From contig JAHQIW010003643.1 in the NCBI GenBank assembly GCA_019055375.1, positions 1 through 64,000 on the forward strand: a stretch of 64,000 bases of DNA. Direction: 5' to 3'. This DNA is from Parelaphostrongylus tenuis (lineage: Eukaryota > Nematoda > Chromadorea > Rhabditida > Metastrongylidae). The notes under the pieces are model-generated. The model was not told the DNA's origin and ran no database searches. It was given only the letters and a program-made list of their open reading frames with translations. This document shows positions 48,270 through 51,200 of the stretch, piece after piece; position 1 is the first letter of the stretch, and the number at the start of each line of letters is the position of its first letter. Both the position numbers and the translations under genes were made by a program.

Positions 48270-51200
48270 ATGAGAGATTCACAATAGTACGTTTCCTTTT
48301 TTTTTGCCTTTTTTCCTATCACTTATGTAAGCTGGCAAGCAACAGACAGCAGCTTCTTCCTTGCTCTTTCAGATACTATGAAAATTGTTCTCTTAATGCC
48401 TGATACTTTTTTTGAGCCAAGCATGTCAGTGGTCTGTCAAAGAGGGCTGACTCATTGAACCCGATACACGTGTTTCGATCTTGCGATCTCGTCAGTCGGG
48501 CACTTACCCTTTCTTGTCTTTCTTTCTGTGGGTGCTCACTAAGAGTTAGCGACGACGAACGTTTTACACTTTACCTTTTTTAACAGACCACATGACATTC
48601 GCAGCTCAAAATGATCATTTGACATATTGAAATTTGAGCTGTAGTCTTAAGAAAACACTCGAAGCGAAAGATATGTTCTTAGGGCAATTATGCATGCATG
48701 TATTCGTCTTCAATTTTTACATTGGTTTGAAGCGATTGAATACATATCTGATCTTTACAATGACTCGTGGTGGCCTCCCGCAGTATCGAGTCAGTGCAGC
48801 CCGTCCTCCCGGTTAAGTCTGAACCACTCCGGTACCAGCTTACCGTCCGGAGGGATGGATGATTTAGTGATTCATAAGCGCCAGATCGAACCATTAACCT
48901 TGTGTGCGACGCAGGACACTTAACCCTTGCGCCACATGCGCTTTTTATTTGTACGTGGGAGTGTATGCACAAAGTGTGCGCAGATTTGTCGAGAAAACCA
49001 CGTTCTATCAGAGCGCTACAGAAAACCCTAAAATATTCTTCGAAACAAAGGAAAAAATCTCTGTTGAAAAATGGAATTCACATGCTGCTGGCGATATCGA
49101 TTATACTGCGTCTGCGAGGGGCTATGTAAGCCGCTAGTTACAGGCAAGGCGAGTTCTTCCTAGCTAAAGAAGAGTTTCATGCGAATTGTTTTATAAGGTT
49201 ATGGGGCTCACGACTCAAACGATTTTACTGTGTTATTAAGGATAATTACATTATGTTCCATTCTTTATCAAAGAACGCATGTTGGGCAGTGGTTAGAGGT
49301 GCTCTGCGTCGAACACAAGGTCGATGGTTCGATCTCGCGCTCGTGGCTCACCAAGCCGTCCATCCCCCAGGGTTCTGTAAGTTTATGTGAGACTGCATCC
49401 ATACTTGCCTGGGAGGATAAGCAGCACTGACTCGATACAGTGGGAGACCAACGCGAGTCATTGTGAAGGCCAGATGTGAATACAATCATCTCAAACGAAG
49501 TTAAAAATTGAAGTCGAATGCATGGCGCATCCTCTAGGGGTCGATCAACGCCTGAAGCTTTATCCTTCTTATCATTCCATTCCTTGCTGCGGTACTCGTT
49601 GTATGATGCTGTTTACCCAATACCAATAATGAAGCAGCTTCTATTAGTGATTTTATAAGTTATTTCATTGTCTTTGCAGTGATAGGTATGGAGGAAGCGG
49701 AGGTCGCGGAGCTTACAATAGCAGTAGAGGTGGCGGGTACGATAGCCGTGGTGGTAAGTCATTTATCACAGTTTGAAGATTTTTTTGCTCGAGTTAATGA
49801 TTGGTTATTCAAGGCGGATATGGAGGTGGAGGCTACGGTGGTGGAGGACGAGGTTTTTCTGGTGGACGAGGTGGAGGTGGTGGCGGAGGCGGTGGAGGAA
49901 CTCCTGGAGGCAGACTTCGAGAGATCGACTGGAGTAAGGAGAATTTGAAGCCTATACAGAAGAATTTTTACCACGAACATGCCACGGTTACACGGAGAGA
50001 TCAGGTATTAATGTTTGATTGTTCTTTTTGTTTTCATGTAGAACGGTCACTGATAAAAAAGAATTCAAGAACTCAGGACTAGAATTGGTTTGACGTCATA
50101 GGGTAGATTGAGAACAGAGATGAATATGCCGGTAGAACGGTATGGTTTTGATATATTTTTTGAACAAAGTAAAATTTCTTCAATCCATTTGTCAGAGCTC
50201 CCACATAGCAGTTGTGTGAGCTCTTGATGAGCTTGACTACTCTAGGAATATTGAGTGTTCCATAGATTTCGGCATTAGAGCAACGAACACCTAATTATTC
50301 AACTAGAAGTAATTGAAATTGCGTGGTTTTGGTGTCGTTCAATTGCGCATTTTCTTGTGAACATCTTGGTGTGCAACTGCCCCATACTTGCTCTAAGATA
50401 GTGCTGTCGTGGAAAAAATCCGCTTGCTATTTATGCACGAATGGCGTAGGAGAAAATGCTAGTGAAGTGGAGCGCAAGAATAATGGAGATTGGGGCGATG
50501 ATGCGGTTGCAGGAATGACGATTAGGGAGTAGTTCGCGAAGTTCAAAGCCGGAAAGAGCAGCGTAGAAAATCAGTCGCTCGGGCCGTTCGCAGAAAGCTC
50601 CATTATTCTTGCACCACCCTTCACTAGCTTTTTCCCTACGCGCCATTCGTGCATAAGTAGCAAGCGGATTTGTTCCACGACAGCTCTATCTTAGAGCAAG
50701 TATAAGCAAGTGGTACACCAAAATGTTCACAAGATAATGCGTAATTGAACGTACAAAGATCACTCAATTTTAATCACTTCTGGTTGATTAATCTGGAGTT
50801 TATTGCTCCAGTGCGAAAATTATGGAACGAACTATCATAGGTAACATCAGAATTCATATAGAATGTGTCGTTATTTGATTTACTGGGTTCAAAGTACCTA
50901 ATATTTTGGAGTCCCTAAGGCGAAAATGTGCGTCATATGGGTGCAGAGCAAGGCGACAGGCTATTTGTTTCTTGGGTAGGGGTAGGGTTTTCTCAAGAGG
51001 ACTGGGTTTTCTTTTTGCGTAATCGTCACTTTGGTGTGATAGATGTAACTGCGGTCGGATGTCCAATGTATAGGACAAAGAGGATTTTGCAATTGCTGGC
51101 AATGTTATTTTATATCGGCGATGATCTTCTGGTCTAATTTGAGAAAACAAATCTCCTTAAAGTTGCTTCGAATTAAATTTAGGGTGTTCAATCTGCTAGT

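Follow-up and report, generated by a model that had tools for sequence, protein, structure and literature searches.

A hammerhead ribozyme motif in a presumed Parelaphostrongylus tenuis intron belongs to a short non-coding element with an insertion footprint like that of Penelope-like elements

The window analysed here, a stretch of 64,000 nucleotides of contig JAHQIW010003643.1 from the nematode Parelaphostrongylus tenuis, holds a minimal type I hammerhead ribozyme motif, C2, on the minus strand at 48459..48501. It is likely that C2 provides the ribozyme of family C, a short retrozyme-like element that is non-coding, has a 316-nt unit and is mobilised in trans by the reverse transcriptase (RT) and endonuclease of Penelope-like elements (PLEs), with circular or multimeric RNA as the template for two-sided target priming. 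With comparable confidence, the copy at 48396-48677 is regarded as an old or diverged insertion in the intron of a helicase gene, and not as a device for the control of that host gene. PLE enzymes are suggested to spread family C because its insertions resemble the PLE insertions of this worm, and we infer the recognition of family C RNA by the PLE enzyme from this insertion footprint alone.

Read on the minus strand, C2 consists of a six-pair stem I (GCCCGA/TCGGGT, the outermost pair being G-U), CTGACGA, a GATC-GCAA-GATC stem II, GAA, the palindrome ACACGTGT as stem III and the cleavage base A, with cleavage predicted 3' of the A at 48465, and the conserved type I core is present. An earlier note on this DNA had described the core, both stems, the palindromic ACACGTGT and the cleavage base, all of which were found again on re-reading, and its assignment of the motif to the PLE or retrozyme sort, with type I layout and a minimal self-complementary stem III, holds as well. 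The predicted stability of the 43-mer is unremarkable (z -1.39; three other stretches range from -0.64 to 0.65), and the best predicted fold of the monomer (minimum free energy) is not the hammerhead. Stems I and II can pair in C2, and the full stem III appears only in the predicted co-fold of two copies. Because stem III is a bare palindrome, a pair of copies is predicted to adopt a double hammerhead in which the two molecules have their stems I in common and pair over 8 bp as stem III (-34.1 kcal/mol vs 2 x -13.1), a prediction that favours the dimer proposed in the earlier note.

A strict descriptor, demanding a palindromic stem III and at least 3 pairs in stem I, finds 5 motifs in the window vs a mean of 0.0013 and a maximum of 1 in 1,500 dinucleotide shuffles. 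The genome (481.5 Mb, 5,105 contigs) was searched as well, with reversed patterns as controls and with stem I outside the criteria for counting. There are 5,348 cores (2,738 + 2,610) with at most 3 mismatches from the 31-nt core of C2, and 10,181 hammerhead cores carrying ACACGTGT (5,084 + 5,097), accompanied by 2,297 B-type cores (1,204 + 1,093) and 735 PLE-type motifs (345 + 390); the reversed control gives 0 in all four cases. Chance as the source of the motif is ruled out by these shuffled-window and reversed-pattern controls, given 5 motifs against 0.0013 in the window and 5,348 genomic cores against none. The loosest pattern is weak by itself (38,441 + 65,957 vs 22,880 + 12,747 in the reversed control). 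Furthermore, stem II covaries, since 96/112 cells pair among the 28 distinct stem II sequences of the ACACGTGT cores listed vs 81.2 after shuffling, with 0/2,000 shuffles as high. Reading C2 as a lone ribozyme was dropped after a loose pattern and a purpose-built covariance model revealed many motifs. The earlier note had recognised the hammerhead correctly; its thousands of copies, the surrounding element and the PLE elsewhere in the window, whose insertion plan is similar, had escaped it. A longer stem III (CTGATGAGTCCCAATAGGACGAAA...) marks a second hammerhead-like lineage, which is seen at G000:C2:235868, 270733 and 271028.

The unit of family C was derived from tandem copies and measures 316-318 nt, with a G+C content of 42% and a numbering that starts at the predicted cleavage site. 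C2 sits in a 282-bp insertion made of two arms placed head to head: the C2-bearing arm at 48396..48573 (-), which covers unit positions 193-387, and a second arm at 48580..48677 (+), which covers positions 25-122 (inverted repeat I3). Their outer ends belong to two classes that recur throughout the family, P for the first arm (locus L039) and Q for the second. The candidate target-site duplications are TGTTCTCTTA at 48386..48395, which is imperfect, and TGTTCTTA at 48674..48681, of which 4 bases at the start also belong to the arm; the exact flank repeat of 6 nt is at chance level. The copy therefore fits the plan of the family by its arms and its P and Q ends, and its duplication is exact over only 6 nt. 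Since it shares only ~84% identity with the unit taken from a young copy, finds its best other genome matches at 77-86% and has this 6-nt repeat, the C2 copy is old or comes from a diverged subfamily. The earlier note had taken the perfect core as a sign of a recently active element, which the same ~84% identity and short flank repeat do not support for this copy; the family itself has young copies, with smallest arm-to-arm differences of 0.7-3.5%. The unit is not itself a PLE, because 316 nt, or the 282 bp of this copy, is too short for an RT and a GIY-YIG endonuclease. The copy lies antisense to the presumed helicase gene, within a presumed intron; the DEAD-box exon at 51490-51744 finds its best matches in DBP2, DDX5 and DDX17, and a ddx-17-like host gene is plausible from these matches. 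A dispersed repeat of ~250 nt at 48697-48941, which resembles a tRNA-derived SINE (box-B-like GGTTCGATCTG, by eye), adjoins the C2 element.

The insertion footprint was read from set A, which was picked by core alone: among the first 100 exact cores listed (of 5,348 near copies), 78 fall into its 70 stretches. With four duplicate chains removed, the set comprises 67 non-redundant insertions; no chain came from L033, L083/L084 are a probable remaining duplicate, and L001-L008 stand outside the insertion counts. In this set, 51/67 insertions are minus-then-plus, that is, head to head with 5'-truncated arms, one further chain consists of two such pairs, 15 have a single orientation and none is plus-then-minus. 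Orientation was counted in set A only, because 29 relatives (L040-L068) and L039 came from a head-to-head query; the mixed first-look set has 45/53 head to head, with one P and one Q end (PQ) in 37/45. Flank repeats of at least 8 nt (8-17 nt) accompany 33/67 insertions vs 95/4,422 mismatched flank pairs, where 2% is expected. The nine outward and four tandem pairs found among the first 100 listed exact C cores lying within 1 kb of each other are joined by one inward pair, which represents two separate insertions (L085).

The outer ends fall within P (unit 56-92) or Q (unit 106-134) in 95/102 arms, at sites ~45 nt apart, and these ranges were drawn after the first loci, with two edges later widened by 2 nt. 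The 51 pairs of outer ends are PQ in 42 cases, PP in 2, QQ in 0, and 7 include another end; among the loci fetched after P and Q had been seen (n=32), PQ was found in 25, PP in 2, QQ in 0 and another end in 5. In the predicted fold of the unit, the ribozyme is followed downstream by two hairpins, and P and Q lie within or next to these. The inner ends of paired arms are, by comparison, unrelated: they lie a median of 92 nt apart and agree to within 5 nt in 2/51 pairs, where 1.8 are expected. At the junction the arms overlap by 0-9 nt in 31/51 pairs and leave a gap of 1-33 nt in 20/51.

Of the 45 arms that lack an exact core (core-less arms), 35 extend beyond the cleavage site, in one case by no more than 4 nt, and 31/102 arms exceed one unit, reaching up to 2.2 laps; in most cases, then, the template apparently bore an uncut ribozyme site. 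Laps within one arm differ by 0-21% in the pairs listed, and by ~1-3% in L030, L014 and L022, and arms of the same insertion are closer than arms of different insertions (7.8% vs 11.2%, in 34/37 cases of the mixed first-look set), as if both arms of an insertion had been copied from one RNA source. An exact run-off at the ribozyme cut was considered as the 5' end of the arms and rejected, with 2/102 arms ending within 2 nt and 1.6 expected. In 52 ribozyme-spanning arms of the BLAST-found set, the catalytic positions differ by 2.8% vs 10.6% in the flanks, and all of them are kept in 38/52 arms, with 17.8 expected. Along the unit, catalytic residues differ by 3.2% vs 10.3% elsewhere, and the 12-mer that changes least lies on the core, at a rate equal to that of another at unit 30. 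A rate computed without any exact core was discarded as biased. These figures provide moderate evidence of ribozyme constraint on the source copies, and no more than moderate because the BLAST query was itself ribozyme-perfect.

The comparison with PLEs starts from a degraded PLE frame in the window itself, with an RT fragment at 6640..7146 (+; RVT_1, 2e-10) and a GIY-YIG endonuclease fragment at 7388..7999 (+; 3e-4, 21.3 bits vs a Pfam cut-off of 22.6). Among the matches listed, the protein nearest to the endonuclease is from Parelaphostrongylus tenuis (84% identical over 76%) and that nearest to the RT fragment is from Angiostrongylus (76%), and the PLE matches with a named source are all from strongylid nematodes (best 120 of 125 for the endonuclease, 114 listed for the RT); no relative of the protein was found in viral contigs. 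A hammerhead-like motif, A2, follows 142 nt 3' of the endonuclease frame at 8137..8170 (+), and the plus arm ends at ~8287 (class P). Opposite to it stands a 5'-truncated arm at 4434..5640 (-), which is ~41 nt longer than the plus arm, has an outer end of class Q and includes the motif A1 at 4597..4631 (-), with ACGT as stem III and an extra A before stem II. The whole insertion is bounded by the target-site duplication TTACATCTCA, at 4424..4433 on the left and 8288..8297 on the right.

Four further, short PLE copies were chosen for motifs that point away from each other over a small distance, which makes their orientation uninformative, while their ends and flank repeats do inform. They have flank repeats of 13, 12, 8 and 12 nt, and one arm ends 183-192 nt past the core start and the other 146-155 nt (124 nt in one copy, by BLAST). 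Across the window PLE and 4/4 of the fetched copies, the flank repeats thus measure 8-13 nt, and in every case one arm is 36-59 nt longer than the other. Of the 735 PLE motifs, those among the first 100 listed that have a neighbour at most 7 kb away form 12 outward, 3 inward and 1 tandem pairs. Family C as a family follows the same PLE-type insertion plan of head-to-head arms, target-site duplication and a tail at one end. Among 108 loci examined, no copy of family C was found inside a PLE frame, and PLE fragments lie near 9 of them (8 places, as L030 and L031 overlap). At L068, a C insertion is flanked on both sides by PLE endonuclease pieces.

How such insertions might arise can be set out in five steps. 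The unit RNA would be made by read-through transcription, after which the hammerhead, in the main dimerised by way of its 8-nt palindrome, would cut multimers to units and a host ligase would circularise these; either circles or multimers would suffice as the template, with circles preferred. The PLE protein would bind the RNA downstream of the ribozyme and, after the model of the Anolis PLE, make a staggered cut in AT-rich DNA. Both broken target strands would then prime cDNA synthesis, usually one at P and one at Q, ~56-92 nt and 106-134 nt past the cleavage site, and the cDNA would travel up to 2.2 times round the unit. Halted at unrelated points, the two cDNAs would be joined head to head, so that the resulting insertion faces outward and in many cases has a target duplication. 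The last two of these steps would account for the footprint observed in set A. PMC11167929 describes cleavage and extension of both target strands by the protein of the Anolis PLE, two internal start sites on the RNA, with the PLE 'tail' as the interval between them, and a hammerhead cut ~85-92 nt before the main start (26 vs 111-118 nt into the frame). By analogy, the nematode insertions look like the expected products of two-sided priming at a pair of sites of this sort. A broader reading, towards which we lean with less assurance, is that integration by PLE enzymes is a two-sided form of target-primed reverse transcription. Circular or multimeric RNA would serve as template, each broken target strand would have a fixed priming site of its own, P or Q, and the cDNAs would then be end-joined. 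This would explain both the 'tail' and the head-to-head structure of PLEs, and thousands of small hammerhead elements would parasitise the machinery.

Several observations weigh against mobilisation of family C by PLE enzymes in this manner, or against C2 as a hammerhead. The Rfam model RF00163 matches exactly the coordinates of C2 in a scan of 361 nt, at 26.3 bits (E 2.2e-4), and in scans of the whole window C2 is absent at the gathering score and also at E <= 10. The earlier note had proposed a covariance search with this model and named the lack of a hit above threshold, together with a lack of self-cleavage, as grounds for giving up its claim; on the covariance half of this, at 26.3 vs 34 bits, C2 stays under the gathering threshold, which is the curators' threshold and no biochemical criterion, and this score does weigh against C2. 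Among the PLE motifs, A1 is a pattern match only and is absent from the covariance-model list of the window, and A2 is not significant (10.7 bits, E 0.81). The commonest listed form of the 735 PLE motifs has an extra A between CTGACGA and stem II, which is unusual for a working core. In addition, the surroundings of P and Q show, by eye, no sequence common to family C and the PLEs.

The footprint likewise has its exceptions. The longest flank match is shorter than 8 nt in 34/67 insertions of set A, and in 20 of these it is 4-5 nt, which is chance-like; no flank repeat of at least 7 nt was found for C1, C2 and B1 in the windows searched, and the 9-nt repeats at the window elements D1 and E, described below, came from wide search windows in which each has an estimated chance of a few percent. 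The ends of 14/45 core-less arms lie at most 20 nt from the cut site (5.8 expected, p 0.001), with no excess within 10 or 2 nt, and the same holds for 20/102 of all arms (13.2 expected, p 0.04), so some templates may have been cut; core-less arms stop near the core by definition, and part of the 20-nt excess stems from this selection. For the Anolis PLE in vitro, PMC11167929 reports no difference in start site between the strands, where one P and one Q is the rule here, and insertion that mutant hammerheads did not block. Finally, the PLE copy L111 (1/4), E and C1 are symmetric, as self-priming would give.

Self-priming, in which one cDNA (or antisense template) would bend round to serve as its own template and so yield head-to-head palindromes, has been argued for bdelloid Penelope from the palindromes at inverted junctions (PMC3846280), and the three symmetric cases just mentioned accord with it. 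It nevertheless needs equal inner arm ends, and the pairing of a P end with a Q end is not among its predictions; fold-back is disfavoured for family C because its inner ends are unrelated, agreeing within 5 nt no more often than expected, and we hold it to be unlikely. An ordinary metazoan retrozyme moved by a LINE, with inversions produced by twin priming in the style of L1, is likewise improbable. LINEs or PLEs have been suggested as the movers of metazoan retrozymes (PMC7229834), and the window does contain a LINE-type RT frame, by eye RTE-like, at 39981-41375 (-); yet the footprint of two ends and flank repeats is seen on the PLE copies themselves, and no A-rich 3' tail was seen by eye at the insertion ends displayed.

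The inverted arms and target duplications are also reminiscent of a palindromic DNA transposon (MITE), which would carry the hammerhead by coincidence, but its ends would not be expected to differ as P and Q do, and arms of variable length with up to 2.2 tandem laps, together with flank repeats of 8-17 nt, make such an origin very unlikely. Least of all is C2 to be seen as a domesticated ribozyme that controls the helicase gene, a thought invited by its presumed intronic location and intact catalytic residues: it is antisense to the gene and one among thousands of dispersed copies. Mobilisation by PLE enzymes through two-sided priming thus remains the preferred account of family C.

This account touches several known systems. 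Lunse, Weinberg and Breaker are said to have reported in 2017 that the minimal hammerheads of Penelope-like retrotransposons act as dimers. The motifs of this worm are like those hammerheads in their type I core, self-complementary minimal stem III, dimer fold (here predicted) and PLE association, the last seen in a window PLE with its own hammerhead-like motif and in the 735 PLE-type motifs of the genome; they differ in that most of the copies counted here lie in short non-coding elements and are known from sequence alone. Metazoan non-LTR retrozymes, as described in PMC7229834 and PMC7761336, resemble family C in having non-coding units of a few hundred bases, a G+C content <50%, type I hammerheads, tandem laps and co-resident PLEs. 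With 316 nt and 42% G+C, family C falls within the bounds set for such retrozymes (~150-450 nt, non-coding, tandem laps, G+C <50%). They are, however, described as tandem, and 'inverted' and 'orientation' are missing from PMC7229834 as far as it was available, whereas head-to-head pairs dominate here and their ends match those of PLEs.

The Anolis PLE PAc (PMC11167929) and bdelloid Penelope (PMC3846280) are alike with family C in having a hammerhead upstream of priming sites ~30-40 nt apart, a tail at one end, head-to-head arms and duplications of 8-10 bp; the bdelloid elements are reported with head-to-head repeats, of which one inverted repeat has a tail, and several of them with duplications of 8-10 bp (PMC3846280). 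Family C differs from both in having no room for such a reading frame. The host list of PAc, in the sections of PMC11167929 consulted, is without nematodes, and the consulted parts of PMC11167929 and PMC3846280 do not mention that P and Q ends pair as a rule. A partial literature search, covering titles and the openings of abstracts, found no account of nematode hammerheads or of PLE-type ends on retrozymes, and no priority is claimed.

Mobilisation of metazoan retrozymes by PLEs has been proposed from shared ribozymes and co-occurrence (PMC7229834), and here the link is backed by an insertion footprint instead of co-occurrence, which speaks against fold-back priming for family C. As far as PMC7229834, PMC3846280 and PMC11167929 were available, how metazoan retrozymes move, and how PLEs gain their inverted halves and optional tail, are open questions in the literature. 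This genome offers thousands of short insertions with readable ends, junction and target duplication, and PLE copies as a yardstick.

Beyond C2, the window holds a dozen further hammerhead-like motifs in five families, one of them on the 3' end of the PLE. A covariance model was built from six window motifs, an alignment of ten having misaligned the 3' half, and it finds 13 places in the window at E <1e-4, seven of them outside its building set. In its helices, 88% of cells are paired vs 71% after shuffling, and both sides have changed in 11/14 pairs, in a small alignment of related rows. C1 (45763..45808, -) is of the same superfamily as C2 and lies in a symmetric element with arms 69% alike. 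The model also marks decayed hammerhead-like relics at 34767-34812, 42178-42222 and 44777-44825.

Two elements have an insertion plan similar to that of the window PLE. D1 (15643..16330) consists of an inverted unit and two sense motifs, with motifs at 15735-15768 (-), 15967-16015 (+) and 16237-16284 (+), and is flanked by the 9-nt repeat TACAGCTTC at 15634 and 16331. E (53229..53642) has arms 77% alike, one of which is ~46 nt longer, outward motifs at 53334-53378 (-) and 53538-53582 (+), and the 9-nt repeat TAATAGTAA at 53220 and 53643. D2 is a further hammerhead at 27448..27498 (+) with ACGTACGT as stem III, upstream of which a tRNA match scores 44.7 bits at 27147-27217.

The B family is represented by B1 at 5687..5737 (-), with ACACCGGTGT as stem III, and B2 at 28877..28927 (-). 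B motifs are spaced by 269-278 nt (one by 539) in rows of up to six copies, and B cores within 1 kb (first 100 listed of 2,297) form 13 outward and 20 tandem pairs and 1 inward pair at 989 nt. The B-family element at 5641..5955 (-), with ~1.16 units and direct repeats of 43-45 nt at its ends, lies between the PLE arms, exactly at their junction; it may have been inserted afterwards, or it may stem from a second RNA picked up as the PLE integrated. Further copies of the SINE-like repeat lie at 12927-13172, 26327-26576, 43646-43889, 46495-46745 and 49270-49524, and a minisatellite with a 43-bp period spans 57961-58403 in 10.3 copies.

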